Virus record (IMG/VR): IMGVR_UViG_3300042568_000701
Span: 1 to 36,924 of that record
DNA from: a virus
Direction: 5' to 3' (one strand)
DNA length: 36,924 nt
Part shown: positions 3,316-25,061 of the stretch, piece after piece
Layout of the letters: every line of letters starts with the position of its first letter
Numbering within the stretch: position 1 is the stretch's first letter
Made by a program: the position numbers and the translations under genes
The notes under the pieces: model-generated
Database searches by the model: none
Seen by the model: the letters and a program-made list of their open reading frames with translations, nothing else
Told to the model about the DNA's origin: nothing

Positions 3316-3347
3316 AATCACGGCAAACTGTCGTGATTTTTTATTTT
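3316..3347 (+). terminator. Rho-independent terminator after nrdA
   Basis: The 7-bp stem AATCACG (3316-3322) pairs perfectly with CGTGATT (3332-3338) around a 9-nt loop, followed by TTTTTT and further T-rich sequence. It separates the RNR operon from the baseplate operon. It overlaps the apparent upstream extension of the next reading frame (nt 3333-3389), which argues that translation of the next gene does not begin there. Confidence 0.8.
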
Positions 3348-3351
3348 ACTC

Positions 3352-3386
3352 TATTTATAAGAAATAATCACGACACTATATTTATT
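3352..3386 (+). promoter_or_regulatory. Candidate AT-rich promoter region of the baseplate operon
   Basis: Between the nrdA terminator and the gp25-like start are TATTTATA (3352-3359) and TATATTTATT (3377-3386). The same octamer or a close variant stands before most unit-leading genes in this window, on both strands. It resembles the inverse of the T4 late box TATAAATA, and TATATTT also fits the TAnnTTTG -7 element of Bacteroidota. Position after a terminator supports a promoter; the exact start site cannot be read from sequence. Confidence 0.4.
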
Positions 3387-3389
3387 GAT

Positions 3390-3848
3390 ATGGCAAATGG
3401 AACTACATATGGGATTAATTTTCCTTTTAGAGATTCTTATGATGGTAAGTATTTAGACCTTTCTGAGGTAAATGATGAAGAAATCAGAACTGATTTAATT
3501 CATCTTTTATTGACTAGAAAAGGTACTCGATATTATTTACCTGATTTTGGTACAAGACTATATGAGTTTATATTTGAACCTTTAGATGGACCTACGTTTT
3601 CAGAAATTGAAGCGGAGATTAGAGCCTCTGTTGAAGAGTATATTCCAGGAATAACAATTACTAAGATTGACATAAGTGCGGCTTCCGAAGGGGAGGAAAA
3701 TAAAGGTACTTATATAAACGACAACGACGAAAGAGTTTACCGAGTTTCTGATATTGGAACTTTAGAACATACTGCAAGAGTTAAAATTGATTACATCATT
3801 ACTAATGATGCTTTTAACAATTCAGATTTTGTAATTATAAATATTTAA
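3390..3848 (+). CDS. T4 gp25-like baseplate wedge protein
   Basis: A 152-aa protein of the gp25/GPW family, a conserved core subunit of contractile-tail baseplates that links wedge and sheath. The family signature is clear: a segment HLLLTRKGTRYYLPDFG leading to an FEPLDGPT stretch, as in the usual pattern of a glycine-rich turn, 'P-x-F-G', and 'L-F-E-P'. I place the start at the ATG at 3390 (MANGTTYG) because the reading frame upstream to 3333 runs through a terminator hairpin and has a poor, non-ATG start. The next gene, gp6-like, begins 6 nt after its stop. The gp25-gp6 order is that of the conserved inner baseplate module of T4, P2 and Mu. Confidence 0.85.
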   Translation: MANGTTYGINFPFRDSYDGKYLDLSEVNDEEIRTDLIHLLLTRKGTRYYLPDFGTRLYEFIFEPLDGPTFSEIEAEIRASVEEYIPGITITKIDISAASEGEENKGTYINDNDERVYRVSDIGTLEHTARVKIDYIITNDAFNNSDFVIINI

Positions 3849-3854
3849 TGATAT

Positions 3855-5693
3855 ATGGCTAACAAGAAAATATCATACACAACTAGAGACTTCCAATCAA
3901 TTAGAACTGAGTTAATAAATTTTACAAGAACTTATTATCCTGACACTATTGATAACTTTAACGACGCCTCAGTTTTTTCAGTATTGTTGGACTTAAACGC
4001 AGCTGTAACTGACAACTTACAATTTAACATTGATAGAAGTGTTCAGGAAACTGTATTACAATATGCACAACAAAGGTCATCAATTTTTAATATTGCAAGA
4101 ACTTACGGATTAAAAGTTCCTGGGCTTAGACCGTCAGTCTCATTAGTTGACTTTTCAATTACGGTACCCGCATTTGGGGATAAGGAAGATTTAAGATACT
4201 GTGGTATCTTAAGAAGAGGTTCCCAAGCTAATGGTGCTGGTCAAGTTTTTGAAACAATTTACGATATTGACTTTACATCAGCAATAAACGCCGAAGGTTA
4301 TCCTAATAGATTAAAAATACCTAATTTTGATTCTAATAATAAATTAATTAATTATACCATTGTTAAAAGAGAAACTGTTGTTAATGGTATTACAAAAGTT
4401 TTTAAAAGAGTTATAACATCGTCTGATGTTAAACCATTTTTAGAAATATTTTTACCTGAAAAAAATGTATTAGGGGTTACAAGTGTTTTATTAAAAGATG
4501 GTACGCAATACGCTAATATTCCTACTACCCAAGAATTTTTAGGTTCCAACAATAGATGGTATGAAGTTAAAGCGTTAGTTGAAGATAGAGTATTTATTGA
4601 AGACCCAACAAAAGTTTCTGATAATCCGGGAATTAAAGTGGGTAAGTACGTCCAAACAAATGATAAATTTATTACTGAGTACACACCTGAAGGATTTTTT
4701 AAAATGACATATGGTGGTGGTAGTCAATCTGCGGATGAACAATTAAGGGAGTTTGCAAAAAATGGGTTCACATTAGATTTAAATAAATATTCAAATAACT
4801 TTGCTTTAGGTAGTGTTCTTAAAGCTAATAGCACCTTATTTGTACAATACCGAGTTGGTGGTGGAACAGGAACTAATTTAGGTGTTAATATTATTAATCA
4901 AATAGGTACAGTTTCATTCTTTGTTAATGGTCCGTCAGAATCAGTTAATACAAGTGTTGTTAATTCATTACGTTGTACTAACGTTGTTGCGGCAATTGGT
5001 GGGGCAAATTACCCAACAACAGAAGAAGTTAGAAACTTAGTGGCATTTAACTTTGCCGCTCAAAATAGAGCCGTAACGGTTAATGACTACGATTCTATAA
5101 TTAGAACAATGCCGTCACAATTTGGGGCACCTGCTAAAGTTGCGATTACCGAAGAAAATAATAAAATTAAAATTCAGATGTTATCTTATGACGAATCTGG
5201 TAATTTAACTGAAATTGTGTCAAACACATTAAAAAATAACGTTGCTAACTACCTATCAAACTATAGAATGATTAATGATTACATTTCTATTCAAAGTGCT
5301 AATGTTGTTGATTTAGGTGTTACTATTGATGTGGTATTAGATAATAGTCAAAACCAAGGAGCGGTTATTTCTCAAATAATTACTATTGTATCTGAGTTCT
5401 TTAGTCCTGGTAACAGACAGATGGGGGAAAATGTGTATGTTTCCGACCTTAGAAGATTAGTCCAAAGTGAAAACGGGGTTATTGCGGTTTCAGATATGTT
5501 ATTCTTTAACAAGGTTGGTGGTCAATATTCTTCATCACAAACATCACAATCTTATATAGACACTAATACGAAACAGATTGGTTTAGTTGATGACACTATT
5601 TTTGCCGAACCAAGTCAGACCTATCAAATCCGATATCCCAACAAAGATATCAACATCAGAGTCAAAAATCTAAAAACGGTTAATTTTTCTTGA
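3855..5693 (+). CDS. T4 gp6 / baseplate J-like wedge protein
   Basis: A 612-aa protein (T4 gp6 is about 660 aa). In contractile tails gp6/J forms the wedge dimer ring of the inner baseplate. Sequence support: the N-terminus (YTTRDFQSIRTELINFTRTYYPD... followed by DASVFSVLLDLNAAVTDNL) has the form common to J-like wedge proteins. The centre has GGVNIINQIGTV-type J-domain beta strands and the segment NRAVTVNDYDSIIRTMPSQF, which matches the 'A-V-T-x-x-D-Y-x-x-l' motif of this family. The context, directly after gp25, agrees. A 72-nt gap with a 19-bp palindrome separates it from the next gene, so the following giant gene may also have its own promoter. Confidence 0.85.
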   Translation: MANKKISYTTRDFQSIRTELINFTRTYYPDTIDNFNDASVFSVLLDLNAAVTDNLQFNIDRSVQETVLQYAQQRSSIFNIARTYGLKVPGLRPSVSLVDFSITVPAFGDKEDLRYCGILRRGSQANGAGQVFETIYDIDFTSAINAEGYPNRLKIPNFDSNNKLINYTIVKRETVVNGITKVFKRVITSSDVKPFLEIFLPEKNVLGVTSVLLKDGTQYANIPTTQEFLGSNNRWYEVKALVEDRVFIEDPTKVSDNPGIKVGKYVQTNDKFITEYTPEGFFKMTYGGGSQSADEQLREFAKNGFTLDLNKYSNNFALGSVLKANSTLFVQYRVGGGTGTNLGVNIINQIGTVSFFVNGPSESVNTSVVNSLRCTNVVAAIGGANYPTTEEVRNLVAFNFAAQNRAVTVNDYDSIIRTMPSQFGAPAKVAITEENNKIKIQMLSYDESGNLTEIVSNTLKNNVANYLSNYRMINDYISIQSANVVDLGVTIDVVLDNSQNQGAVISQIITIVSEFFSPGNRQMGENVYVSDLRRLVQSENGVIAVSDMLFFNKVGGQYSSSQTSQSYIDTNTKQIGLVDDTIFAEPSQTYQIRYPNKDINIRVKNLKTVNFS

Positions 5694-5765: not shown

Positions 5766-8700
5766 ATGTCCAACTCGTATAGAATAAGAACCAAACCTGG
5801 TGTTGATAGTTCAATTAAGATTTTAATTGACCAAGAGTTTGAATATTTAGAGATTCTTTCTCTAAAAATATTACAAAGCCAAATTTACACAAGACAGTGT
5901 TCCGACTATGGAGTTATTGTTGGTAGAGTTAGTATTAATAATGGTTTTGGTATTCCTAACGCAAAAGTATCTGTTTTCATACCTTTGGACAGTATGGACG
6001 AAAACGACCCTGTTATTTCTGAGTTATATCCTTACAAAACTTTATCAGATTTAAATGAAGATGGGTATAGATATAATCTATTACCTTATAAACAACAACA
6101 TCCAGGTCATAATCCTACGGGGACCTTCTTTACAAGAGAAGATGTGTTAATCAACCCAACTCTTATTGAAGTTTACGACAAGTACTATAAGTATAATGCG
6201 ATAACTAATGACAGTGGGGATTATATGATATTTGGGGTGCCTGTAGGGGCTCAAACGGTTGTTGTTGACCTTGACCTTTCAGATATTGGTGAGTTCTCTT
6301 TAGCACCACAAGATTTAATTAGAATGGGGATTACTACAGAATCACAAGTTTCTGGAACAAACTTTAAATCATCTACAAATTTACGAGAATTACCTCAAAT
6401 CATTACTTTCGTTAGAAACCTTGAAGTTGAACCATTATGGGGTCAACCTGAAATTTGTAATTTAGGTATTACAAGAACTGATTTTGATTTATCCGCAGAA
6501 TTTAATATTAACATTACACCTACCGCGATTTTTATGGGTTCTTTAGTATCATCTATAGAAGAACAGTATGTTAAGAAGAGTTGTAAACCAACCTTAACCT
6601 CAGGGGCACTTTGTTCTTTAGTTGCGGGGCCTGGTGAGATATTAGCAATTAGACACACAATTGCTCAAGATTCTAACGGACGACCTATATTAGAAACAAT
6701 TGATTTGGAATCAGGGGGACAAGTTATTGATGAAAATGGTACTTGGCTTGTGGATTTGCCGATGAACTTGGATTATGTTATCACTAATGAGTTTGGTGAA
6801 CAAGTTATTTCAGACGACCCAAAAAATGGTATCCCAACAAAAGGTAGGTATCGATTTAAAGTTAAATGGAACCAATCACCATCAGTTTCTGCTGACCCTA
6901 TTAAAAGGGGGTATTTTTTAGTTCCAAATATTAAAGAGTACGGGTGGAGAAAAACTGGAAATATTAACGTAGACCCACTTACTAATAATACCGCAACTAT
7001 CTTAAATCGAGACGCCGCGCAAAGGTCATACGCATTCAGTTTAGATTGGGCGGATTATGGATTAACGGGGACATCCATGGGTAATCAAATGATTGATGAG
7101 GCGATTAGGTGTGAAGATAAATTTTACGAGTTTCAATACAATAAGGTTTATACTGTGTCACAATTAATTACTCAATATAGAAATGGGTATGGTAATTGGA
7201 GAATTATTGCGATAAAAGATATTTTAGATAGCGATGTTAACTGTTCTAGCGACAATAATAAGTTTCCAACAAATGATGCGGTTTATAGATTTGATTTACT
7301 TTATCTCTTATTCACAATAATGATGTTTGTGTTTAGACCGATATTATATGTGTTATTACTAGTAGTACACATTTTAGCTTTTTTTTTAATGATTGTTGGC
7401 CCTATATTAGCAATCATCGCGGTAATCGTTATTCTTATTGTTATTACTGTCTGTACACTTATTAATGGGATTATATGGATTATTAACATCTTAGGTAGTT
7501 TAGATTATTTGGATTGTCCTGATGGTGGTGATATTGAGAGAGCGGTTGACCTCCTGTTAAATTTATATAAAAAATTTACTAATTTAAGACTCCCTAATTT
7601 ATCATATCCCGACTGTGAATTCTGTCAATGTACTGATGGAGACGCAATCACAATTGACGTTTCACAGTATCCATCTGCGGTGGCTAGTACTCAACAAACC
7701 GCTCAAGAAGCCGGAATTAACGCAGTTTTAACCCCCTTTGAACTTTCAACAAGCTATAACGCGACCTCACCATTTAATACGGATAACCTTGTTTATGAAA
7801 GTTTATTTGCGGGCACACCATTAGGTAACGCTAACCAAGCAAATAATCCATTAAAAGCTCAAACACGTACACCGCAAATTAAAAAAGTGACGGGTGGTGG
7901 GGGTAATCAAGGTAATGATTATGAGTTTACAACAAGTTTAACTCAAGCGGAAAGATTAAATTTATTTAATACTAAAGCAAAGTTTTTCAGAAACGACATT
8001 AATAATAATCCTGGTGGCGGTGTTAATATAATTAACGTTTCATTTAATCCTAACGATATTGGTGTTACTCACCAAGATAATGTTATTGTACTTATGGTAG
8101 AACCTGGCTCGGCGGACACTTTTCTACCGGGTAATTTAATAACTTTTCAAGACCCTACAAACTCTACTGACCCTAATATAACAGGGTTTACGTCTATTAA
8201 TGATTATGGTACTACAAGTAGTACAGGTACTACGGTTAATAATAAACCAGGTAGTACTTCAAATGTTGGTAATATTACAGTCCAATATGCCGATTATGCC
8301 AATGCTAATGGCCCTGCATTGACTAAAACATATACTAGTCAACAAGCTGAGGATGATGTGCAGTACGCAAAATTCCCAATGGATGTTGAGTATTTCCAAG
8401 TAATTACCGCACAGACTTATTCCGACTATTTGACAATATGTAACCAACCAGGAAGTTTTGGTACTTATCATGGTTTAAACAATAGATTTATTGATAACCA
8501 TATGAAGTTCAATAGAATTTATGGTAAACCTTTTAGTTTAGGATTTTGGATAAATGAGTTAAATATTAATTATCCCACTGGATTTCCACTATTAAAACCT
8601 AGTACTTATTTCCCTGAATTTAATGAACAAATTGTTGTTTTTTTAGTTAGAGGGGTTGACCCGTATTCTACAAGAAGTAATTGTGAATACGACCTCAGTG

Positions 8701-11246
8701 TTTTGTATGGTGATGTTGTGACAGCTTCTTCAATTTCTAATACATGGGGTTTTACTAACAGAGTAAAAGTTACTAGTGGTGTTGGTGGGGCACCTAAATA
8801 TCATTTAAATCAACCAATTAAACCTGGTTTTAAAAATATTAGACATAATTTAACAAATAATTTTGATACCGATACTTATAGTAACCAAAATTTATATTTT
8901 GATTCCTTCCATTATCAACCGAGTCCGACTGGCCCCGCGGCTTTTAGTGGATTTAATTCTAATTTACAAACTTACTATTCTTCATTAGATAATGGTAGTA
9001 TGTTGTTCACACCTCAAGTTGGTACTCCTAATTTAGATACTGGTTTTAATTCTGACACAACTTACGGTGTTAATGTTGATGGTAACATTAATTACTTTGC
9101 TAGAGAATTTAATTCACAACCAGGTTTATATGACCCAAATACATATAACTACCTCGCTCCCATAAATCCTTATAATGTTCCAAACACTAATTTTCCAAAC
9201 ACTGTAAGTCGTGGATATTACGATAATGAAATTATTGAAGGAGGGTCTGGAATGTATTGTCAAACTTTTGTAAGAAGTCTTAGCACACCAGCAGCTATGG
9301 GTGGAACCTACGACTATAATTCATATTATTATGCACCAAAATACCCTATTGCTAACATGTCATATAATTTGGGTGGTGCTCGAAAAATAATAATGAGGTC
9401 AGATAGATTACCTACATCTACTACATTACAAAATAATTTAAATAATAGTTTTGCATTACATAACAATGTTAATTTCTCAGTATATTCGATTAGTGATGAT
9501 GGTACTTCAGTGCAAGCTCAAGGTGTTGGTGGTGGACAATCGGGAAGTATAACGGGTAATACTGCGGACTCATTAAGTGATGGTGAGACGGAACCTCAAA
9601 TTATTAGTTCTGTTATTGACTCATTCAACTGTGGGGCGATGATTAATTTAGATTGTTATAAAGAGGTTAATGGTGAGTTAGTTGTTGACTATACCGGACC
9701 TTGTGGGTATACCTTTTGGAATCAGAAACTGGTAACAAAGGGATGTTATACTTTTGTAACTACAATTTTTTTATCATTAGTCTCAGACTTTAAATTATTA
9801 ACCGAGTGGGTTAGTCGTTTATTAATAACATTTGCCGCATGTCGAAACGTGTGGGGGCATCTGTTCACAAATAATTGGATTAATGGTACTTTATACGCAT
9901 TTAATTTTAATAATGATGTCACATTTACATCTCCATTATCACCAAATCCAAATCAAGCAAGATATTCTTATTGTGATGATGTGGTTATATTTCATAATAC
10001 TACTAACACATTTTATTATCGAAGTAGCCCATGGGACCGAACTGACTTTATTGGGCAAAATAGAGCAACACCAAATACTTTTACTTCGGCATTATTTGGG
10101 GGGTATGGTGGAAATATGTATAATTTATTATACCCAACGACCATTATGGATTTAGGCCCAAGAAATGATTATTTACAAGATATTGTAATGTCAGATAAAT
10201 ATGATGGATATGTCGCTAATAAATTAAAATCAACTACTTTCTCAGATGTTACTGAATTATTAAATTTGTTCGTAATTACTAGGCTGGCTAATTCAAGTTT
10301 CTTACAACTATTAATTGGTGGAGGAAATGTGTTCTCATATTTTAGTAGAGTTAAAAATATGGTTGATGGGGATTACGCTCAGTCGATTTCAATTAATTCA
10401 GAACTTGGAGTCGCACCATTTCAATCGGCAAATTACCCCGACAGACCTGGACAAGATTCTATTTATATTAATACGCTTTCGGATGATGACCAAGTATTTG
10501 GAATATTCTACCAATCAGATACAAGACTAAGAGATTTAATTAGCCCAAAAAGGACAATTATTGACGATACTGTTCCGGCAACTAATGTGTGTGCGTTTAG
10601 TAATATTGAAGTTTCTTCCCAGGACGTTCCATTTTATCAATGGGAAGTTAGGACAAATAAAGTTGGTTCAAACGATAGTATTTTTGGTAGTCAAGTTAAT
10701 GGGTGGATGACTGACCCGTTATCTACAACTAGTTTCTTTACTAAGAAATATCAAAGTTTAGATAGAATAGAATCAGCGTCAAGATATTTTAGAACTAATT
10801 CTACCGCAATGACTAAGTACTTTAAGGGTTATCTATATAGTGTTGAACCAAAGACCGTTACAGGTGTTTGTAGTATTTTTGGTAATGTTTTAACAATTTA
10901 TTCTCCCATTCCACAACTTTTACAAGAAGGGTTTGTATTAAGTGCCGCAGGGATTATTCCAAACACTACGATAATAAGTCAATTAACTGTAACATTACCA
11001 AGTACAGCTGCGGGTGGTTCAGGTACTTATCTTATTGATACTCCGCAAAATTTTGTTGGAGGGCCATTTACCGCAGTAGGGTTTATATATAGCGCGGTAT
11101 TAAGTACTCAAGACCAAAACACCCCTAAAGGTAGAGTAATAAACACAGGAGCTCCTTTCTATTTCTATTTTGGTTTGAAGAGAGGTGGTACCGCATTTGA
11201 TAGATTTGTGATTAAATGGGTCGATACTAATAATATAACTGCGTAA
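5766..11246 (+). CDS. Giant structural (baseplate/tail) protein with internal membrane-like helices
   Basis: 1826 aa, the largest protein here; I do not recognise a named family. Position inside the baseplate block makes it a probable baseplate or peripheral wedge protein (T4 gp7/gp10-type role is conceivable). About residues 45-170 look like a carboxypeptidase-regulatory/transthyretin-like beta sandwich, cued by NGFGIPNAKVSVFIPL and later NDSGDYMIFGVPVGAQTV. Around residues 505-575 lies an exceptionally hydrophobic stretch with about three consecutive potential transmembrane helices (for example FVFRPILYVLLLVVHILAFF and ILAIIAVIVILIVITVCTLI), then a Cys-rich patch CEFCQC. The remainder is Asn/Thr/Tyr/Gly-rich, beta-type, typical of extracellular phage structure. 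It is followed 1 nt later by the next gene, suggesting coupled translation. Product confidence is low beyond 'structural'. Confidence 0.7.
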   Translation: MSNSYRIRTKPGVDSSIKILIDQEFEYLEILSLKILQSQIYTRQCSDYGVIVGRVSINNGFGIPNAKVSVFIPLDSMDENDPVISELYPYKTLSDLNEDGYRYNLLPYKQQHPGHNPTGTFFTREDVLINPTLIEVYDKYYKYNAITNDSGDYMIFGVPVGAQTVVVDLDLSDIGEFSLAPQDLIRMGITTESQVSGTNFKSSTNLRELPQIITFVRNLEVEPLWGQPEICNLGITRTDFDLSAEFNINITPTAIFMGSLVSSIEEQYVKKSCKPTLTSGALCSLVAGPGEILAIRHTIAQDSNGRPILETIDLESGGQVIDENGTWLVDLPMNLDYVITNEFGEQVISDDPKNGIPTKGRYRFKVKWNQSPSVSADPIKRGYFLVPNIKEYGWRKTGNINVDPLTNNTATILNRDAAQRSYAFSLDWADYGLTGTSMGNQMIDEAIRCEDKFYEFQYNKVYTVSQLITQYRNGYGNWRIIAIKDILDSDVNCSSDNNKFPTNDAVYRFDLLYLLFTIMMFVFRPILYVLLLVVHILAFFLMIVGPILAIIAVIVILIVITVCTLINGIIWIINILGSLDYLDCPDGGDIERAVDLLLNLYKKFTNLRLPNLSYPDCEFCQCTDGDAITIDVSQYPSAVASTQQTAQEAGINAVLTPFELSTSYNATSPFNTDNLVYESLFAGTPLGNANQANNPLKAQTRTPQIKKVTGGGGNQGNDYEFTTSLTQAERLNLFNTKAKFFRNDINNNPGGGVNIINVSFNPNDIGVTHQDNVIVLMVEPGSADTFLPGNLITFQDPTNSTDPNITGFTSINDYGTTSSTGTTVNNKPGSTSNVGNITVQYADYANANGPALTKTYTSQQAEDDVQYAKFPMDVEYFQVITAQTYSDYLTICNQPGSFGTYHGLNNRFIDNHMKFNRIYGKPFSLGFWINELNINYPTGFPLLKPSTYFPEFNEQIVVFLVRGVDPYSTRSNCEYDLSVLYGDVVTASSISNTWGFTNRVKVTSGVGGAPKYHLNQPIKPGFKNIRHNLTNNFDTDTYSNQNLYFDSFHYQPSPTGPAAFSGFNSNLQTYYSSLDNGSMLFTPQVGTPNLDTGFNSDTTYGVNVDGNINYFAREFNSQPGLYDPNTYNYLAPINPYNVPNTNFPNTVSRGYYDNEIIEGGSGMYCQTFVRSLSTPAAMGGTYDYNSYYYAPKYPIANMSYNLGGARKIIMRSDRLPTSTTLQNNLNNSFALHNNVNFSVYSISDDGTSVQAQGVGGGQSGSITGNTADSLSDGETEPQIISSVIDSFNCGAMINLDCYKEVNGELVVDYTGPCGYTFWNQKLVTKGCYTFVTTIFLSLVSDFKLLTEWVSRLLITFAACRNVWGHLFTNNWINGTLYAFNFNNDVTFTSPLSPNPNQARYSYCDDVVIFHNTTNTFYYRSSPWDRTDFIGQNRATPNTFTSALFGGYGGNMYNLLYPTTIMDLGPRNDYLQDIVMSDKYDGYVANKLKSTTFSDVTELLNLFVITRLANSSFLQLLIGGGNVFSYFSRVKNMVDGDYAQSISINSELGVAPFQSANYPDRPGQDSIYINTLSDDDQVFGIFYQSDTRLRDLISPKRTIIDDTVPATNVCAFSNIEVSSQDVPFYQWEVRTNKVGSNDSIFGSQVNGWMTDPLSTTSFFTKKYQSLDRIESASRYFRTNSTAMTKYFKGYLYSVEPKTVTGVCSIFGNVLTIYSPIPQLLQEGFVLSAAGIIPNTTIISQLTVTLPSTAAGGSGTYLIDTPQNFVGGPFTAVGFIYSAVLSTQDQNTPKGRVINTGAPFYFYFGLKRGGTAFDRFVIKWVDTNNITA

Positions 11247-11247
11247 T

Positions 11248-13044
11248 ATGGGGAATAGAATAGATACTCGAGTAGTTTTAGGGTCATTAAGGTACAAGTC
11301 GGCACCTGACACAAACCTAATGTTTAATGTACCTTTAGTTCAAACTAATAAGGAGAATATTGAATTTGATAGGAATATTAATATTGACTTACAACAAGTT
11401 TTTGATGATGAAAGACAAAAATCCGACACATTTAGACCTGTATGCAAGTTCTCATTATTATTTAACAATTCTTATAGTGGGTCAACTAATTACGTACCAT
11501 TAGAAAATAATTTATATTATGTTAACGCTGTTGCAGCTGCTAAACTACAATGTGGGTATAATCCACAAACTGTTCTTTGGTCAGGGTTTCCACAATATAA
11601 TGAGTTTGACTTTGTTCGCACAGATTATAATGTCCCAGGATATACTCAACCACCCAATAATCATATTACTTTTATACCTAAAAGTGCTTCAAGTTATAAT
11701 TGGAATTTTTTTGTTAGTTATGCTTATGATAATGATTTTACAAAACCATTAGAGGCTATTGACCAAAAAAGTGGACAATTATTACAATGGATTTCTGGTG
11801 GAGGAATACCATTTATAATTAATAACACAACATTTAATGGACAAAATTTAGTATCATTTAGATGTCCGGTAAAACATGGTTTATCTATTGGTGAGCACGT
11901 AAAACTTAACTTCAGTTACATTGGAATTGACACATTTCAAGTATATTCATTAGGAGACCAAAAATCGGGGAGTGAAGAATACATATTCAATATATATAAC
12001 GTTGGGTTTACTGGCGCTGTTTTTGTTAATAATAAAAAAGGTTTTTTTAAAAGAATTATTGATATTGAAAATCCTAATGATACTACCTCACAATATTATG
12101 TTAGAAGACATAAATTATTAACTAACTCGCAAGACGCGGTATTAGTTAACGCAGGATTTGACCAAAATATTTTTGGTAATAAAAAGAAATTTGAAAGTAG
12201 TGGATTTACGCCAAATCGAGTTGCTAGGGTTTCAACTAAAGAAGGCTCGCAATCATATACACTATCTTTTAATAAAGACATAAATATTAATCCTATTAGA
12301 GATAATCAAAAACGACCTATAAGTGAGTTATTTTTCACTGTCATTTGGAAAGGTTATTTTGGATTAATGTTTGGTACTAAAAAAAATCCAAATGATTATT
12401 TAGGACTTAAACAAGGTTATGAATTTAATTTACCGGTTGACCCCGCAAACAATCAACCTAGTTCTTGGTGGGAGAACCTAAACAGTTTATCCGACACAAC
12501 ATTTCCTGTTGGTTTTTATAACACACCACTTGGTGCTGGTTTAGGGCCTAATTCAGGGCCAATACCATTTACCTATATTGAATCGTTAAAACAAAATGAT
12601 ATTTTAGATGGGGATTTGTGTGAGTGGAATGAATCGGAACAAAAAGAAAGAGTTATCTCAAAATTATATCATAAGTACAGATTTAACCCATTTGTATTAA
12701 GCGTAACAGAACCACAACAATCACCCTCAAACATGTTTGGGTATTATTATCAACCTCATTACCCAATAAAGATTAGGGATTATTCTGATTATATTGAAAC
12801 GGGTAGTAAACAATTAACTGAGGGTATCCCTGACTATGCGTTTTATTCGCAAAAAACCGATTCATTTATTTGGAGAGATATATACCAATATGGTTTTATT
12901 AATAATGGTATTGGGGTTAATTACCCATTTATTAATGGTACCCATTACCCTTATAATTATAATATTTTTAGAATAATTCCGGAAGGAAGTAATTATGGTA
13001 TAGAAGGATTAACAACTGACCCTATTATCGATGGATGTGAGTAA
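11248..13044 (+). CDS. Unknown structural protein of the baseplate block (598 aa)
   Basis: No family recognised. The ATG lies 1 nt after the stop of the 1826-aa gene, and the 3' end overlaps the next gene by 14 nt, so it is embedded in a translationally coupled structural operon. The protein is rich in Asn, Tyr, Phe, Ser and Gly, with no signal peptide or membrane helix, and has a long aromatic C-terminal part (YQPHYPIKIRDYSDYIETG, then YAFYSQKTDSFIWRDIYQYG). A charged segment CEWNESEQKERVISKLYHKY at about residues 455-475 stands out from the otherwise beta-like composition. Role as a baseplate or tail-tip component is inferred only from its neighbours. Confidence 0.75.
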   Translation: MGNRIDTRVVLGSLRYKSAPDTNLMFNVPLVQTNKENIEFDRNINIDLQQVFDDERQKSDTFRPVCKFSLLFNNSYSGSTNYVPLENNLYYVNAVAAAKLQCGYNPQTVLWSGFPQYNEFDFVRTDYNVPGYTQPPNNHITFIPKSASSYNWNFFVSYAYDNDFTKPLEAIDQKSGQLLQWISGGGIPFIINNTTFNGQNLVSFRCPVKHGLSIGEHVKLNFSYIGIDTFQVYSLGDQKSGSEEYIFNIYNVGFTGAVFVNNKKGFFKRIIDIENPNDTTSQYYVRRHKLLTNSQDAVLVNAGFDQNIFGNKKKFESSGFTPNRVARVSTKEGSQSYTLSFNKDININPIRDNQKRPISELFFTVIWKGYFGLMFGTKKNPNDYLGLKQGYEFNLPVDPANNQPSSWWENLNSLSDTTFPVGFYNTPLGAGLGPNSGPIPFTYIESLKQNDILDGDLCEWNESEQKERVISKLYHKYRFNPFVLSVTEPQQSPSNMFGYYYQPHYPIKIRDYSDYIETGSKQLTEGIPDYAFYSQKTDSFIWRDIYQYGFINNGIGVNYPFINGTHYPYNYNIFRIIPEGSNYGIEGLTTDPIIDGCE

Positions 13045-13847: not shown

Positions 13848-15026
13848 ATGGATAATAGAATTTATTATATAAAAATATCTCCAGAAGTTATTAAAAACGA
13901 TATCTTCAAGGTTAATATATACTCACCTTATACCGAAGATATTGAGATACCCTTTTGTTGTGATATATATACCCAGCAAGTTACAAAATATGTGACAGGA
14001 CATACATATGTGTATTCATCCATGACTGAAATTTTATCAGGTGGAACCAACGGGGATTCAATCTTAACAGGACTTACGGTTCCAATTATGTTAACTGAGA
14101 ATACGGTTGATTTAGGGTATTATTCAGTTTTTGATGGAATGGTGTTACAACAGGAAACTATGACTAATTTTTTGTTTTCTGCGACAACAACGTTCCCTAA
14201 CGTATATTATTTTTATAATACTTCCGATACCGAGTTTAAAAAATATTTAGAATTTTCAAATTATTATGTTGATTGGGGTGACGGAACGCCAATACAAACA
14301 ATAACAACAAACGCACCAAATTATTACCAACACACTTACTCAACAATTGGGGAATTTACTATTATTATGTCAGGAATGAGTCCATGGGGTTCAAATATTG
14401 TTAAAAAAACAGTTGAAGTTCCATTTACTAACATTGTAATAACTAATCCTAATGGTACCGCTTATTTTACACCTGCGGGTGGTAGTTGGAGTGGGACTAT
14501 GTTTAATTATGATTACATTTTTAGTGGTGACGCTAGTTGTGACGCGCAAATAATGGACATTACAAATTTTACCACAGTCCCTTTTATTGTTACAGGGTAC
14601 ACTAAATCTTCTGTTAGCGATTTAGAAGTGTATGGAAATAAATATACTTTGTTTGGTGGAAAATATAATGTAGGGGTTCAAATAACTGGCACATCGGGAA
14701 ACATTGGAACGTATTGGGGACCACACCCAACAGAACCATACACAGCATATACAATTAATGGAATGAATTACTATGATTATAGTGATGGTACTACAGTATT
14801 TGCGGTTGAGTCTTCGGGATTAACTCAAGATATGTTAATTTGTTCTGCAATTACAAAAAATGAGGTATTGATAAATGTAATTGATGAGGCTGAAGTTCAA
14901 AGTAATGTTTTTGTTGAACGAGGTAAACTATCTGGTTTGGAACGAATTGAAAGATTGGGGGAAATTGATAATATAGGTGACCTTGAAAAATACGGATATG
15001 GTTTTTTTGATATAATAAAAATATAA
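13848..15026 (+). CDS. PKD-domain structural protein
   Basis: 392 aa. A PKD-type beta-sandwich (an Ig-like fold common in surface proteins and phage fibres) is marked at about residues 138-175 by YYVDWGDGTPIQ, then YQHTYSTIGEFTIIMSG, matching the family's 'W-D-F/W-G-D-G' and 'H-x-Y-x-x-x-G-x-y-x-v' motifs. The rest is Thr/Asn/Tyr-rich beta sequence. The C-terminal 60 residues are charged and less like the rest (GKLSGLERIERLGEIDNIG). It sits 1 nt after the previous gene and 1 nt before a 42-aa gene. Likely an exposed baseplate or tail-tip component; binding to polysaccharide or host surface is only inference. Confidence 0.75.
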   Translation: MDNRIYYIKISPEVIKNDIFKVNIYSPYTEDIEIPFCCDIYTQQVTKYVTGHTYVYSSMTEILSGGTNGDSILTGLTVPIMLTENTVDLGYYSVFDGMVLQQETMTNFLFSATTTFPNVYYFYNTSDTEFKKYLEFSNYYVDWGDGTPIQTITTNAPNYYQHTYSTIGEFTIIMSGMSPWGSNIVKKTVEVPFTNIVITNPNGTAYFTPAGGSWSGTMFNYDYIFSGDASCDAQIMDITNFTTVPFIVTGYTKSSVSDLEVYGNKYTLFGGKYNVGVQITGTSGNIGTYWGPHPTEPYTAYTINGMNYYDYSDGTTVFAVESSGLTQDMLICSAITKNEVLINVIDEAEVQSNVFVERGKLSGLERIERLGEIDNIGDLEKYGYGFFDIIKI

Positions 15027-15027
15027 T

Positions 15028-15156
15028 ATGGATATTTATTGTTATGAAACAAAACAATTATCTAAATTAAAATGGGTTAATGAAAATATTAAACCTGTAG
15101 AAATTTTAGTTGTTGATAAAAGAAATAATGAAGTAATAAAAAAGAATATTTTATGA
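15028..15156 (+). CDS. Small 42-aa protein in the baseplate operon
   Basis: ATG at 15028 opens one nt after the preceding stop, and its stop overlaps the next start as ATGA (15153-15156). This tight packing on both sides is the main evidence that the ORF is real. The product is small, basic and lysine-rich (MDIYCYETKQLSK..., then PVEILVVDKRN), ending KKNIL. It has no recognisable motif. It could be a small structural plug or chaperone, or simply a coupling ORF that carries ribosomes to the 302-aa gene; I cannot choose between these. Confidence 0.65.
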   Translation: MDIYCYETKQLSKLKWVNENIKPVEILVVDKRNNEVIKKNIL

Positions 15157-16061
15157 GTGTTGGAACATACGGAACAATAAGGCCAGCGGATGTCTCTCCC
15201 GAAGATGTAGAGATAATTTTGAATTTTACCCCATCAAGGGATGAAACGGATAATTTTATCTTAACTAAGTTAAATGCGACATCAATCTTAAGACCATACT
15301 TTAATAACAATGATACTGGTGGTAACCCTAATATTGAAATATTGGGTGGTTTATATAATTTAAGGTTACCTTCAGACCAATTTAATAAAATTGGTATCTA
15401 TACCTTAATGGTTAGACCGGCCCAAATAAGAACAAGAATACTTGATTGTGGTGTTCTATCGGCATTACCAAATGTTAAAGGGTTAGTTATTGATTTAAAT
15501 GACGTGCCAACTCAGTTTAGAAATAAATTTGTTAATCAAGGATTGGTTGGTTTTAGAATTGAATATTTAAATTCTGACGGAACTAAAGTACCTAATTTTT
15601 TTAGATTAATAACTTCATCATTTTTTTGTGAACCAGTTGTTCAAAACTTAACTAATACTTCTCAAAAAGCTATTAGATATAGGTATACTGATAATAATAC
15701 AAATTTAATTTTTTGTACTGTTTCACCATCATCATCACCTACTAATAAGCCAAATGCAACACCGTATATTGGGCAACCTGACCAAGATATCATTATTACA
15801 AATACTTTCTTTAATCCAATAACATTGGATATTGAAATTGCTGAACACGATTTCTCAACATTGGCAATTGCATTGTTTGGTAATCAAACTAAGTCTATGG
15901 ATGATGGTATCTACACATTATACGATACTCAAAATAACATATACAGACAATACAATTTATATGAAATTAGAGACCAATTTAATGAATTACTTTATGAGGT
16001 TAGACAAGATAGGGGAAATAATATTGACTTCAGTAAAAACTTTACAAATATAACGCAATAA
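15153..16061 (+). CDS. Unknown structural protein of the baseplate block (302 aa)
   Basis: No family recognised. The start overlaps the stop of the 42-aa gene (ATGA) and the stop shares an A with the next start (TAATG), so it is translationally coupled on both sides. The protein is beta-type with a moderately hydrophobic core, no signal peptide and no membrane helix. A short Ser/Pro segment (VSPSSSPTNKPNATPYIG) at about residues 190-207 may be a linker between an N-terminal and a C-terminal half; the C-terminal 45 residues (YTLYDTQNNIYRQYNLYE followed by a charged stretch) could be helical. Role as a tail/baseplate part is by context. Confidence 0.75.
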   Translation: MSVGTYGTIRPADVSPEDVEIILNFTPSRDETDNFILTKLNATSILRPYFNNNDTGGNPNIEILGGLYNLRLPSDQFNKIGIYTLMVRPAQIRTRILDCGVLSALPNVKGLVIDLNDVPTQFRNKFVNQGLVGFRIEYLNSDGTKVPNFFRLITSSFFCEPVVQNLTNTSQKAIRYRYTDNNTNLIFCTVSPSSSPTNKPNATPYIGQPDQDIIITNTFFNPITLDIEIAEHDFSTLAIALFGNQTKSMDDGIYTLYDTQNNIYRQYNLYEIRDQFNELLYEVRQDRGNNIDFSKNFTNITQ

Positions 16062-19000: not shown

Positions 19001-19081
19001 AATTCAATTTGCTCCACTTCAGCCTTTGGTGATAACTTTAAACTAAATGTTGGAATAAACTTTAATATTTTATGTAATTAA
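16061..19081 (+). CDS. Large baseplate/tail protein with P2 gpI / T4 gp7-like segment
   Basis: 1006 aa. About residues 345-410 (helical, with KFIDALAFMTSVNYNVGND and LLKNLAQTLGWGINI) and 440-480 (YYRNLVLNSAYLFKSKGTRK, then IEVLMRLVGAPEALVEF) resemble the 'LYKSKGT-x-x-A/S-I-x-x-L-x-R-L-x-G' signature of phage tail proteins of the P2 gpI type, related to the gp7 wedge core. Such a subunit is expected to join gp6 and gp25, both present upstream. The N-terminal third is beta-rich. The C-terminus after about residue 840 has a Cys-rich stretch (CCKFIPVPCKPC) and then a separate beta-rich domain. The start shares one base with the previous stop and the stop shares one with the next start (TAATG at both). 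Assignment to gpI/gp7 is an inference from motif and context. Confidence 0.65.
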   Translation: MAVTKYTCPPQSASGAGTFSDNLVGFQLVTGGGLTQGNFEFVSSINEKTNRTFNTGNFSDPISLDSMGVSGVVQSKSIFENNFKVYPNFDMSQITNFTLYGSMVKRISVSVETIISKFPAALESTFMGTNYVTGATATNILFNSVYDETVFDLDVSKLRNPFDIDFSVNSTRNLELKEISVSPLRDMTIQYAKYSLYVNGVGYDVKSLTPTTNTSSGVLQISVSGNPFSGQSIVYYSFVIRPNDYEVTKIFNEDLDEVENFLLNRSVTPIYTATFQVPRESEDGTYYTSNQPITWPLYGEWNIDIITKSFENYLIQLNEVSEYFDIYTTNLVSRFLITGSFKEFDTVTQKMEKVLQIYGRSFDETKKFIDALAFMTSVNYNVGNDIPSQLLKNLAQTLGWGINISPITEDDFLGSVFGQKNKDNSQFTGTSQKQTPDELNYQYYRNLVLNSAYLFKSKGTRKSIEVLMRLVGAPEALVEFNEYVYVADQKINLEQFETQFYNISGGTYIQELPTYEQGNTFNIMGVTYTGFTTQTTIQDVNINRGEYPMDFYGYPQAPIDTENYFFQIGSGWFEQTPKHRAPEQVDLNNSVFTGSNPNYQTTLIPYSYGQEYLNRFRDFPFMTLGYNLSAVPDNNKSWTDNEVGIRSNLDGGINARYFADDERLVLNVKNVDLFLNPAQGIVYDVWYMSRQYNYPIPNQGLNYVAPTYCNPHPNIKYPQRGGVDWTEINPQPKRKTFFEFAQTFWQNTINVRNRQYATDGKTSGYPTLSSIFWKYLESQQTINIPNDNFTYQTMIDYVNGMGDYWIRLVEQMIPATTIWNTGVKYENSIFHRQKFVWRRQECCKFIPVPCKPCSLTSNIYRYDCNIQSVECGVYPWYGSSTINSFNAVLGQALNNYLTANGYTLNNCLLNTLTTNWFVEIKINDSTVIQYPFFDGIGYTNISLSSPQPNDWDSALLIALNDLTIYGYDYYLTTTDTVVIYNSICSTSAFGDNFKLNVGINFNILCN

Positions 19082-22000
19082 TGTCTTGTACTTTATTATA
19101 CACCTCAGCCATAACTGGTGATTGTTCAAATACTAATGTTGGAGCATTTAATATAAATATTAATGGTAGTGCTCCTGATTATTCAATTCAGTGGATTAAT
19201 CCATCTTCTTTAGGAACTATAGCGTTAGGTGCTGGTATTACACAATATGAGGTTACATCATTATCTGCGGGGACTTACACATTTAATATTATTGATTCAT
19301 GTATACCAACATTAACGGTTGTCCCCGTAAATGTATATATATCAAGTGGAACGTGTGTAAGTATTGATTCTCATACTAATGCTACTTGTGGTCAAAATAA
19401 CGGTAGCCTTACCGCATCAACCCAAAATCTTTATGGTATAAGTCAATTCTACCTTTACGATACAATTAATGGTTATATTACGTCGGCGTCATCAGTAACA
19501 AATACTTTTGCATTTGATAATATGTTAAGTCCTGGGATTTATTATGTTATAGGTGATGACGGTGGTGGATGTTCAGGTAAGTCAGAAACATGTATTGTTC
19601 AAAGTGCGGAAACATTTGACTACGGATTTTATGTTGTTAATGATGCGGGGTGTGCAGTAAATTCAGGTAAAATATTTATTACAGGATTGACAGGTACACC
19701 ACCATACACTTATTTATGGTCAAACGGAGAAACAAACTCATCAATTAGCGGTTTAAGTGCCTCGACTTACGGTGTTATTGTTACTGATGGTAATGGATGT
19801 ACTATTTCTAAATCGGTAACGGTATTACAAGTGCCATTAGTTGGGTTAGGGGCTTTTACCTCAATTAGCCCAACTTGTTTTGCGTCTAACGGAGAAATTA
19901 CGGTTACGGTAACAGGTGGAACCGCGCCATATTATTTTTCAGGTTCAAATGGGACTGTTTATATTACATTTGACCAAACTTATACTTTTACAAATTTAGC
20001 TTCAGGTGTTTTTACAGTACAAGTGACGGATGCTGGTTTATGTAATTTTGTTGCAAGTACAACATTATTACCTCCAGGAGGATTTAGTATTGTTGGTATT
20101 GGTGTTAATAATTCAAACTGTAACAATAACGGGGGGTCTTTAAACCCAATTCAATTATTTGGTGGTAGTGGTAATTACACTTATGATTTACAATATCCTG
20201 ATGGAAATAATTTGGTTCAAAGTACAACAAATCAAAATTGGCAATTTACGGGACTTTCAGGTGGTACCTATAATTTAACAATTAGTGATGGTGTCTGTAC
20301 CTTTACCAGTGCTTATACTATCAATAATACAGTTCAATTTAATTTGACGACAACAAGTACAGGAACAACTTGTAGTTTTACTAATGGGGCTATTAACTTA
20401 GAAATTTCAGGTAGTACAGGGCCTTATACTTACTCAATAAATGGGTCAAGTTTGGTTTCGCCTTTAAGTGCATATACATTTAGTAATCTGGCCTCAGGAA
20501 CATATACTGCTAGTGTTACAGACTTTAGTGGGTGTCAACAAACTAATTCTGTGTTAGTTGCTCCATCCTCAAATCCTAATTTTATATTAAATGCGACAAA
20601 TACAGTAAATGGTTCTGATGGTACTATCACCGCATACATAACTAATGGTGTACCACCATTTACTTTAAATTGGAGTAGTAACGTAAATGGACAAACAGGG
20701 TATACGATTAATAGTTTATCCGCTGGCACGTATTCACTTACAGTTATAGATTTTAATGGGTGTTCTACAATATCAAGTGTTATTATTACAGGTACAAATA
20801 GTGTATCATCCTATCAGACATATACAATATGTGATACTGATTTTATCAATTCACCAAATGCGATTAAAACCGGTCCTAAACAAATGTTAAATGAAGGTTT
20901 TTATGATTTAACAATTAATGATATAAATTGTGTTTTAAATGAGGCAATTTTTGAAGCGATTGTGAGTGTTAGTGGTAATGTTTTAACTCAACAATTTTAT
21001 GCTGGTACAACATTAAACGAATATCCTGCAGATAATCAATTTTATGACACAATTACGGGGTTATTATTACAATTTGATGGTATTGCAAGTGTGGATATTA
21101 ATCCCCTAACAAATACTATTCAAATTTTAACTGATTGTGAATCTTTAGTTTCTTTATCGGACGCTCAAGTTATTATTAACATGAAAATATATTATGATAT
21201 CTCGTGCGTTAGTTGTCCTAGTCCTAGTCCAACACCAACATTAACACCAACACCAACTAACACTCCGACACCAACAGTCACACTTGGGTTAACTCCAACA
21301 CCAACAAATACTTCAACTCCAGCAAATACGCCAACACCTACACCAACAAAAACACCAACTCCAACACCTTTACCGATAATACCAATATGTTCTGTATTAA
21401 TTAATAATGGTGTTGACGTATCCGCCTATTTTCCATCATCAAATACTAACGTATTTTTAGGTAATTCTTTTCCATCATCACCAGATATTGCACATACAAC
21501 AACTAAACTATGGATGTATGATGGGTCGATAATTAAAGAATATAACATAACATTAAACCCTTGGTCAAAAACTTTCAACAGAAACATTGCATACCCTTCA
21601 GGTGTTTCTTTAGGGTTTGGTTTAGGGGCCATTAGCAACTCTCTGTTAATCTCAACAAACGTTTCAGTATCTCCTAATCAAATAATTACTTTAGATATTA
21701 ACACAAGTACCGCAGTTTCAACTGTAATTGGAACACTAGGGGTTGGTAGGACTGTTTCGGGTGATATTTTATTAACAACTACAAATAAAATATTAGTTAC
21801 TAATCAATCTACTACTGGTCCTTTTACATCTACATATCTAACCCAATATAGTTATCCGTCAGGTGCTTTTGAAGTTGAGGTCGATATTACGTCAACCATA
21901 CCTTTTCCGTATGGTATATTTATCGATAGTAGTAAAATATATGTTTGTAACAGTGGTGGTCAAATATATAAGGTTAATGTTAACTTCCCATACGCACAAA

Positions 22001-22374
22001 CATTATTTAATAACTCAGGATTAACCATTTTAGGAGCGTCTCAAGTACCAAGTTGTTGTAATACTAACCTAAACTTACCTATAACATCCTATACTTGGTT
22101 TACTAATCTTGATACCTACACATCATCTGATATTACTCCCTGTATAGCCACTGGTTGTGGGGCAAATTTATACACAGCAACATCGACAATAGCTCCTGGA
22201 ATTGTAATATATCAGGATAATGCTTTAACAATACCATTTGTTGGCACTAATTATGGTCTTTCAGGTGGTGGATGGGGTAGATTGTTTTTATCAGATGATT
22301 GCCCAATAACTGGATTGAGAAATGTTGCACAAGTAAATGGTTCAGGACAAGTTCTAAGTAATTATACATGTTAA
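19081..22374 (+). CDS. Tail fibre/adhesin with SprB-like repeats, Thr-Pro linker and C-terminal propeller-like domain
   Basis: 1097 aa. Residues 1 to about 580 hold some seven beta repeats of 75-95 aa of the form 'C..nnG.i....sGg.gPYtY.w.ng......isgLsaGtYtv.vtD.nGC', for example GTPPYTYLWSNGETNSSISG and LSAGTYSLTVIDFNGC. This is the pattern of SprB repeats from gliding Bacteroidota adhesins. A Thr/Pro linker covers about residues 713-765. A third part (about 770-1000) has phrases such as LWMYDGSIIKEYNI and KIYVCNSGGQIYKVNVNFPY that suggest a beta-propeller-like fold. The last 90 residues form a Cys-containing domain ending GSGQVLSNYTC. The start shares its A with the stop of the baseplate gene upstream. 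It probably acts as a receptor-binding fibre; the receptor is unknown. Confidence 0.75.
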   Translation: MSCTLLYTSAITGDCSNTNVGAFNININGSAPDYSIQWINPSSLGTIALGAGITQYEVTSLSAGTYTFNIIDSCIPTLTVVPVNVYISSGTCVSIDSHTNATCGQNNGSLTASTQNLYGISQFYLYDTINGYITSASSVTNTFAFDNMLSPGIYYVIGDDGGGCSGKSETCIVQSAETFDYGFYVVNDAGCAVNSGKIFITGLTGTPPYTYLWSNGETNSSISGLSASTYGVIVTDGNGCTISKSVTVLQVPLVGLGAFTSISPTCFASNGEITVTVTGGTAPYYFSGSNGTVYITFDQTYTFTNLASGVFTVQVTDAGLCNFVASTTLLPPGGFSIVGIGVNNSNCNNNGGSLNPIQLFGGSGNYTYDLQYPDGNNLVQSTTNQNWQFTGLSGGTYNLTISDGVCTFTSAYTINNTVQFNLTTTSTGTTCSFTNGAINLEISGSTGPYTYSINGSSLVSPLSAYTFSNLASGTYTASVTDFSGCQQTNSVLVAPSSNPNFILNATNTVNGSDGTITAYITNGVPPFTLNWSSNVNGQTGYTINSLSAGTYSLTVIDFNGCSTISSVIITGTNSVSSYQTYTICDTDFINSPNAIKTGPKQMLNEGFYDLTINDINCVLNEAIFEAIVSVSGNVLTQQFYAGTTLNEYPADNQFYDTITGLLLQFDGIASVDINPLTNTIQILTDCESLVSLSDAQVIINMKIYYDISCVSCPSPSPTPTLTPTPTNTPTPTVTLGLTPTPTNTSTPANTPTPTPTKTPTPTPLPIIPICSVLINNGVDVSAYFPSSNTNVFLGNSFPSSPDIAHTTTKLWMYDGSIIKEYNITLNPWSKTFNRNIAYPSGVSLGFGLGAISNSLLISTNVSVSPNQIITLDINTSTAVSTVIGTLGVGRTVSGDILLTTTNKILVTNQSTTGPFTSTYLTQYSYPSGAFEVEVDITSTIPFPYGIFIDSSKIYVCNSGGQIYKVNVNFPYAQTLFNNSGLTILGASQVPSCCNTNLNLPITSYTWFTNLDTYTSSDITPCIATGCGANLYTATSTIAPGIVIYQDNALTIPFVGTNYGLSGGGWGRLFLSDDCPITGLRNVAQVNGSGQVLSNYTC

Positions 22375-23657: not shown

Positions 23658-25061
23658 ATGACTAACACGACATCTTTACTTCAACAAAAAAACGAATGTG
23701 ATGTAATTACAATATTTCCAATGACCGTTGAGTGTTTAGTTAACAATCCGTCATCACAAAATGCGACTGATGGTAGCTTATCTATTTCTATAACAGGAGG
23801 AACACCACCATACATAGTTGCTTGGAGTAATGGTAATATATCTCCGGCAATTAATAATTTAGGTGCTGGTAGTTATACAGCAATAGTTACTGACTATTCT
23901 TGGTCAGGGAGTGGTCCTGATTATACGGCAACTACAACATGTGTGTTAACCGCACCTATAATACCTGTAACACCAACACCTACACCAACGGTTGTGCCTG
24001 TATTACTCTATGATATTTGTTTAACAGTGTATATACAACCAAGTAATTATCAAATGCACTTTAATCCTAATGGTATATATAATGGTATATATAGTAGTGG
24101 TTATCAATCATGGATATCAGATGACTCAGTATACCAAATTGTTTGGGCTACAATAGACAATCGATGGAGGGTAATTCCGAACACAACAAACCCTGGTGGT
24201 GGAAGTGTTTATATGTTACAATCACCATCACCATATCCGCCTTTAACGGGATGGTATGTAATTGGAGCATTAGGAACTGTTGTGTCAAATCAAGGTCTTT
24301 GTGTGCCGTTACCAAGTAACCCGTCATTTACATATTCACTTACTCAACCGACTTGTACATGTGATGGTAATATAATTATAACGGCTTCTAATGGAACACC
24401 ACCATATCAGTACTCAGTTGATAATGGAGTGACATTCACTAGTAATTCAGGGCTCTTCACAGGAAAATGTCCTGGAACTTATAGTTTACAAATTAAGGAT
24501 TCGTTAAATAATTTAAGTACTGTTTCTACGGCTACCTTAAATAATTTTATTGGAACAACAACATATACTCTTAGTTTGTCACCGACAGTTATTGTAACTG
24601 TAAACAATAACACAACTTTAACAAGACAATTTACTGCTACCGTAAATGTTTCACCACCAATCCCTGTTGGAACAACAATTACGTTTGATGCACAACACAT
24701 AAATCAGTTTGGTAGAGGGCCTGCCCCAACTGATGCGACTATTGTGACTAATAGTGTTTTAACTAAAAATTCAACAGTAATACCAATAACTTCAAGCCCG
24801 TCATCAAGTAATACTACAACACAAATAGGTGCCGGTTGTCAATCGGCGGCATTAAATAATACAGGTCAAATTGATAACTGGGTTTCGGTGTCAATGACAA
24901 ATGGTGATACCATGGTTATTAATACCACAACAACTATGACTAAAATACAACCAGTACCTAATTGTTTCTTCGCAGAATTCGGTGACACATTTTTTGCGGT
25001 AAATGGGGTTATTAATGGATGTAGTTGTTGTAGGTTAATTATGCCAAGTAAAGCGGTATAA
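23658..25061 (+). CDS. Short tail fibre/adhesin with SprB-like repeats
   Basis: 467 aa. About residues 20-95 form one SprB-like repeat (NPSSQNATDGSLSISITGGT, PPYIVAWSNGNISPAINNLG, then AGSYTAIVTD). A short Thr/Pro linker ([11 protein letters not shown]) follows at about 105-117. About 118-215 is a Tyr/Trp-rich module (YDICLTVYIQPSN, GIYSSGYQSWISDDSVYQIV) resembling one in the minus-strand 1161-aa fibre. About 220-295 is a second SprB-like repeat (CTCDGNIIITASNGTPPYQY, then KCPGTYSLQIKD). The C-terminal 160 residues are a further beta domain ending with a Cys-rich GCSCCRLIMPSKAV. The start directly follows the 19-bp palindrome. Likely an exposed, modular host-recognition protein. Confidence 0.7.
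   Translation: MTNTTSLLQQKNECDVITIFPMTVECLVNNPSSQNATDGSLSISITGGTPPYIVAWSNGNISPAINNLGAGSYTAIVTDYSWSGSGPDYTATTTCVLTAPIIPVTPTPTPTVVPVLLYDICLTVYIQPSNYQMHFNPNGIYNGIYSSGYQSWISDDSVYQIVWATIDNRWRVIPNTTNPGGGSVYMLQSPSPYPPLTGWYVIGALGTVVSNQGLCVPLPSNPSFTYSLTQPTCTCDGNIIITASNGTPPYQYSVDNGVTFTSNSGLFTGKCPGTYSLQIKDSLNNLSTVSTATLNNFIGTTTYTLSLSPTVIVTVNNNTTLTRQFTATVNVSPPIPVGTTITFDAQHINQFGRGPAPTDATIVTNSVLTKNSTVIPITSSPSSSNTTTQIGAGCQSAALNNTGQIDNWVSVSMTNGDTMVINTTTTMTKIQPVPNCFFAEFGDTFFAVNGVINGCSCCRLIMPSKAV

Follow-up and report, generated by a model that had tools for sequence, protein, structure and literature searches.

The window, a stretch of 36,924 nucleotides of viral DNA corresponding to positions 1 to 36,924 of the IMG/VR record IMGVR_UViG_3300042568_000701, includes nrdB and nrdA upstream of the genes for a gp25-like baseplate wedge protein (nucleotides 3333-3848, plus strand; PF04965, E 3.3e-11) and a gp6-like baseplate wedge protein (3855-5693, plus strand; phrog_219 and PF04865, Baseplate_J). 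Directly 3' of the gp6-like gene, an open reading frame on the same strand (5766-11246) codes for an 1826-aa protein with a hydrophobic segment, and it is followed by the gene for a conserved 598-aa protein, p598 (11248-13044, plus strand), which has no such segment and is present at 102 of 136 dereplicated loci. Two phage proteins encoded 3' of the baseplate block (19081-22374 and 23658-25061) include SprB repeats (PF13573), which are familiar from the gliding adhesins of Bacteroidota, and relatives of the 1826-aa protein were found on Bacteroidota and Paludibacteraceae MAG contigs. On the basis of these two observations the hosts are probably Bacteroidota. The family belongs to uncultured contractile-tailed jumbo phages. 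Elsewhere in the window, a 1161-aa protein encoded on the minus strand (28256-31741) shows a partial match to phrog_15511, a group of unknown function, and the gene for a protein of the pyridoxal-phosphate-dependent enzyme family (36209-36922; PF00291, E 2.4e-56) continues past the window end.

The order of gp25, gp6 and the gene for the 1826-aa-family protein is strict, and gp6 was the immediate upstream neighbour at 132 of the 132 family loci in which it was detected, so that at these loci the family gene occupies the position immediately 3' of gp6, that of gp7 and TssG. This order supports the placement of the 1826-aa protein in the baseplate block; the protein is a putative giant component of the contractile-tail baseplate. 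A 177-kb record encoding a 94%-identical relative gives a wider view of the arrangement: the genes for the sheath, the tube, a T4_baseplate (PF12322) protein and a 645-aa tape-measure candidate come first, followed by those for two giant proteins and then by RNR, gp25, gp6 and the 1826-aa-family gene. The possibility that the 1826-aa protein is itself the tape-measure protein was rejected because its gene does not lie between those of the tube and the hub, where the 645-aa candidate is found in this relative. A sheath was detected in six of seven long related records and bS21 in three of seven related records. These records resemble the published bS21-encoding Bacteroidetes phages, myoviruses of large size from freshwater that have a sheath and baseplate W proteins (PMC9723584); in the passages considered no protein of the 1826-aa family is described, and the two groups may share a clade.

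The 1826-aa protein has no match in PHROG and no above-cutoff match in Pfam, and the family profile matched no sequence in the PDB. A tblastn search of 50,697 phage records with six different members revealed no convincing cultured relative, the loosest limit yielding two chance-level matches only. The family is large, undescribed and from uncultured phages, and IMG/VR contains no fewer than 596 relatives of a single member. A0A8S5LA66 from the metagenomic Myoviridae sp. ctPuP5, which Foldseek matched with an E of 3.8e-43 and 35% identity over 550 columns, is a clear relative in both structure and sequence; it is unannotated and uncharacterised and has no assigned function. A search of bacterial genomes identified four MAG contigs with divergent homologues, two of them without the hydrophobic segment and one ending before its position. 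The comparisons described below were carried out with 136 dereplicated complete homologues of 732-3028 aa derived from 305 loci, a sample that reflects the search patterns used and should not be taken for a census free of bias. All family members include, whole or in large part, a conserved N-terminal region, residues 1-470 (5766-7175, plus strand), that is mostly beta in the AlphaFold2 model. Within residues 46-249 (5901-6512, plus strand) VIA-align identified a putative transthyretin or carboxypeptidase-regulatory-like beta domain; the best match, to 2nsm, had a middling Z of 6.4 with an rmsd of 2.2 over 80 residues, and Z values of 5.0-6.4, mostly over 80-105 residues, were obtained with many folds of this type, which is below the level at which a match stands out. 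Structure searches with the C-terminal model returned weak generic beta matches only.

Nucleotides 7270-7500 code for residues 502-579. The 19-residue Kyte-Doolittle (KD) mean is at least 1.6 across residues 505-580, with a peak of 3.39, and never attains 1.6 elsewhere in the protein, while the best 66-residue mean is 2.59 as compared to 0.79 ± 0.16 in 2000 shuffles (maximum 1.49), a difference of 11 SD. Residues 510-579, 70 in all, include one Asp, one Arg, one His and two Asn. These values, together with the strict gene order, agree with the first-pass annotation, which had described a baseplate-block protein, otherwise polar, with about 70 residues as hydrophobic as the core of a membrane protein. 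The same annotation had proposed about three transmembrane-like helices, a number that was not borne out. AlphaFold2, run on residues 1-760 and an alignment of 83 sequences (mean pLDDT 72, pTM 0.57), predicted one continuous helix of 63 residues, 511-573 (7296-7484, plus strand), for which the 10-residue pLDDT means are mostly 81-91; the soluble bundle that the first-pass annotation had named as grounds for refutation did not appear. The model is of a single chain, without partners or membrane, in which hydrophobic stretches are readily drawn as helices, and hydropathy combined with such a model does not tell a lipid-facing helix from a buried one. The predicted helix has the character of an integral membrane segment, that is, at least about 20 hydrophobic residues without a polar face. 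Its only likely hinges are Pro525 and Gly545-Pro546, and at 1.5 Å per residue its length would be about 95 Å; since this exceeds one membrane crossing, a helix in a membrane would have to bend at these hinges or lie partly outside the bilayer.

The helix is preceded by an FPTND motif, residues 500-504 (7263-7277, plus strand), of which P501 is invariant in 83 sequences, and it starts with a conserved apolar core of about 34 residues, 511-544 (7296-7397, plus strand). In the 83 homologues residues 511-537 have no gaps and almost no charge except at position 524, and the core consequently has no polar face; His535 and Pro525 are common, and position 545 is often charged (mostly Arg) or Gly. The core is followed by a clade-variable part, residues 545-605 (7398-7580, plus strand), that differs among relatives in length, hydrophobicity and number of stretches: past about residue 545 the sequence is continuously apolar in the clade of the window, and in others it consists of two or three stretches with polar turns, or is amphipathic or short. 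The module ends at the sequence (Y)PDCxxCxC, which includes a CxxCxC motif (CEFCQC, residues 617-622; 7614-7631, plus strand) whose cysteines are invariant in 37 close homologues; in the wider set, C620 is present in every one of the 79 rows that have no gap there. The Cys-rich patch pointed out in the first-pass annotation is therefore real and nearly invariant, but it does not immediately follow the hydrophobic stretch, being located 44 residues beyond the end of the helix and outside nucleotides 7270-7500. A metal site or a disulphide cap is a possible function of this motif.

The hydrophobic segment is kept at the same place, at about residues 440-665 and after the conserved N-terminal region, in 134 of the 136 homologues, and its absence from homologues, likewise named as grounds for refutation, is confined to two of them. 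A KD of at least 1.8 is found in 132 of the 136, and two more, L162 and L219, have values of 1.68 and 1.77. The two proteins without the segment, L142 (766 aa) and L145 (732 aa), are the smallest and most divergent of the set; the match of L142 to the family profile is limited to positions 3-468 and 1385-1508, so that it lacks both the segment and the middle part of the protein. These two short homologues indicate that the segment is not required in every relative. In some rumen-type relatives the segment is weaker and more amphipathic, with a peak KD of 1.7-2.3.

Six neighbouring families (gp6, p598, p271, p392, p302 and p1006) were used as a control, and a KD of 1.8 was reached by 1 of 282 of their members as compared to 132 of 136 for the family of interest; among p598 homologues the count was 0 of 61. 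In the interval from the sheath gene to this gene of three related genomes, the sheath, tube, tape-measure-candidate, hub, gp25 and gp6 proteins have no comparable segment, and the other proteins above a KD of about 1.7 are nrdB (1.92 and 1.77) and, in one genome, an inserted 308-aa ORF (2.08). The next large proteins encoded after distant gp6 relatives, from the cultured phages immuto (Flavobacterium) and Mel-JY01 (Microcystis) and from an uncultured 484-kb phage record, show neither the segment nor any similarity to the 1826-aa protein. The 308-aa ORF was found in G002 (L059 record, approximately 124351-125277), where it lies between gp6 and the gene for the big protein and owes its value to a hydrophobic N-terminal stretch; it is absent from the window, and several close relatives also have a gap of about 1 kb between gp6 and the big gene.

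The neighbouring families thus conform to the view, expressed in the first-pass annotation, that baseplate proteins normally avoid such segments, but T4 gp7 does not, as it has a transmembrane-like helix of 19 residues (886-904, KD 2.07). This protein, the wedge initiator with TssG, P2 gpI and Cis12 as counterparts, resembles the 1826-aa protein in that its gene lies directly after gp6 and near gp25, in being large and multi-domain, and in this helix, which is common to seven T4-like phages (T4 and six others). The GenBank note on T4 gp7 reads 'C-terminus is predicted integral membrane domain', yet full-length gp7 is listed in solved baseplate entries, a statement that applies to the entries and not to individual residues. 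A three-helix bundle is known in the (TssF)2-TssG and (gp6)2-gp7 wedges (PMC6300606). By analogy with both cases, the segment described here could be a structural helix that never meets lipid and packs with gp6 and with its own copies around the tube or hub, in the manner of the wedge bundle, its apolar surface being an interface. We regard such burial as the main alternative, if on balance an unlikely one. In comparison to that of gp7, the segment has as much as three times the length, is far more hydrophobic (peak KD 3.39 as compared to 2.07) and has no polar face; it lies in the middle of the protein and is followed by a Cys motif, whereas that of gp7 is near the C-terminus, and the N-terminal fold matches of the 1826-aa protein are other folds. 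Homology to T4 gp7 was rejected after comparison by hhalign of a 7-member gp7 profile with the family alignment, which gave a probability of 0.8%. This lack of profile similarity, which also counts against burial by analogy with gp7, is the reason why the 1826-aa protein is not filed as gp7. Five downstream families gave no profile signal when compared to gp7, and structure searches with two half-models, each a single chain, included no wedge protein among their matches.

Further evidence on whether the helix is packed or lipid-facing comes from the comparison of close relatives. L003 and L005 are about 98% identical to the window over 19 kb, except for a divergence island at 7351-7950 (plus strand), in which DNA identity is 81-92%. 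For residues 546-605, comparison to L002 and L005 gave a dN of about 0.21 and a dS of about 0.18, the corresponding values for residues 1-510 being 0.005 and 0.04; as both are raised, exchange or a relaxation of constraint is a likelier cause of this divergence than clean positive selection. A diversity-generating retroelement was rejected as the cause of the hotspot, since there are no adenine-biased substitutions; ordinary recombination or relaxed constraint would fit. A frame or assembly artefact was also discarded, the protein being identical or near-identical in several independent contigs and the core dN/dS well below 1. The helix differs from that of the near-identical L002 at 12 residues, and every one of these changes stays within the set V, I, L, F and Y, for which a simple missense model gives a chance of about 2e-4. 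Across 19 independent close pairs the core shows 29 substitutions, each of which replaces one apolar residue by another; in 13 of these 19 pairs conservation is lower in the variable part than in the N-terminal region. Maintenance of apolarity while sequence and length drift would be allowed by lipid contact and unusual for a packed core, which is an argument, if not a proof, against burial, and so is the fast change in length and sequence beyond the core between near-identical phages. The looseness of this part, with hydrophobicity often kept, fits a lipid environment. A second divergent patch, at 15001-15300, shows 56-86% DNA identity to L003 and L005 in a region that is otherwise about 98-100% identical; it consists mostly of the gap between the genes for the 392-aa and 302-aa proteins (15027-15152) and may represent a small insertion or a regulatory region.

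The passage of DNA through the inner membrane after sheath firing is an open question, and the hydrophobic parts of tape-measure proteins are the usual suspect; a membrane-like hydrophobic segment is common in these proteins, without being a defining property of all of them. The tape-measure protein gp59 of phiCD508 has a predicted three-helix transmembrane domain, and a hydrophobic stretch of T4 gp29 has been proposed to contribute to channel formation (PMC11948020). Like gp59 and the tape-measure protein of TP901-1, the 1826-aa protein is a putative tail protein with a strongly hydrophobic helical segment of the kind for which an action at the host membrane has been proposed (PMC11948020, PMC5099701); it differs from them in being encoded after gp6, a separate tape-measure candidate without the segment being encoded just after the tube and hub genes. 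Considering the membrane-level hydrophobicity, the conservation, the apolar-only evolution, the lone AlphaFold2 helix, the gene order and how seldom a segment of this type is seen in neighbouring proteins, we tentatively favour a membrane-active baseplate module used at infection, a reading whose chance of being correct we judge to be slightly below even. The module would consist of the apolar helix of about 34 residues, an extension that varies and a Cys-rich cap. As long as the virion is free, baseplate partners would sheathe the helix; attachment and sheath contraction would then open the baseplate, and the helices, perhaps one per wedge, would insert into a host membrane and help to dock the tail tip or to open a path for the DNA. 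The DNA-entry channel formed after contraction that the first-pass annotation had envisaged would be plausible. The elements of this scheme, from incorporation into the virion and the number of copies to burial ahead of firing, membrane insertion and a possible channel, are all inferred. The role at infection must be weighed against the weak rumen-type versions, the two homologues without the segment, the presence of T4 gp7 in solved baseplates, and the results with TP901-1 (PMC5099701). Deletions in the tape-measure protein of this lactococcal phage made chaperone binding or assembly a likelier function of its hydrophobic regions than membrane insertion (PMC5099701), and by analogy the module could be a docking site for a chaperone or assembly partner, shielded until incorporation and with no membrane role. 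We find this highly improbable: no dedicated chaperone gene was identified, and a length and a number of stretches that vary among clades are unlike the needs of a fixed site. A more far-reaching version of the membrane-active module, in which membrane entry has moved from the tape-measure protein to a wedge-position protein, a ring of helices opens or clamps the membrane once contraction has taken place, and the variable half is tuned to the host membrane or to competing phages, is speculative and in our opinion unlikely.

Contact with a membrane could also take place before the virion is complete. The contractile injection systems (CISs) of Anabaena are held in thylakoids by a transmembrane helix of the tail-fibre-like Cis13 and an extension of the baseplate protein Cis12 (PMC8894136), and firing of the Streptomyces CIS requires the membrane protein CisA (PMC12237407). 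In these systems, as perhaps here, a transmembrane segment is tied to a baseplate or tail-fibre component, but it belongs to tail-fibre-like or accessory proteins of cell-resident machines, whereas here it belongs to a phage protein encoded at a wedge-gene position. By analogy, the module could tie the nascent baseplate, or the protein during its synthesis, to the host inner membrane, and so hydrophobic a segment should in principle be recognised by the membrane-targeting machinery at translation. A phage baseplate must, however, come free of the membrane before it can become part of a soluble virion, and here no form freed by release or cleavage is known; we consider an assembly anchor quite improbable.

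In a very common and undescribed group of phages, then, a membrane-like helix is found in the wedge-position protein and the tape-measure candidates are without one. The helix may help the phage tail to engage the host membrane, or it could simply be buried inside the baseplate. If it inserts, the membrane-engaging part of these tails has been named; if it does not, it serves as a warning that a baseplate protein for which a transmembrane segment is strongly predicted, such as T4 gp7, can have a buried helix instead. Regarding the short members of the family that lack the module (L142:2870-5113 and L145:10001-12187), L142 could show what a minimal version of the protein does.
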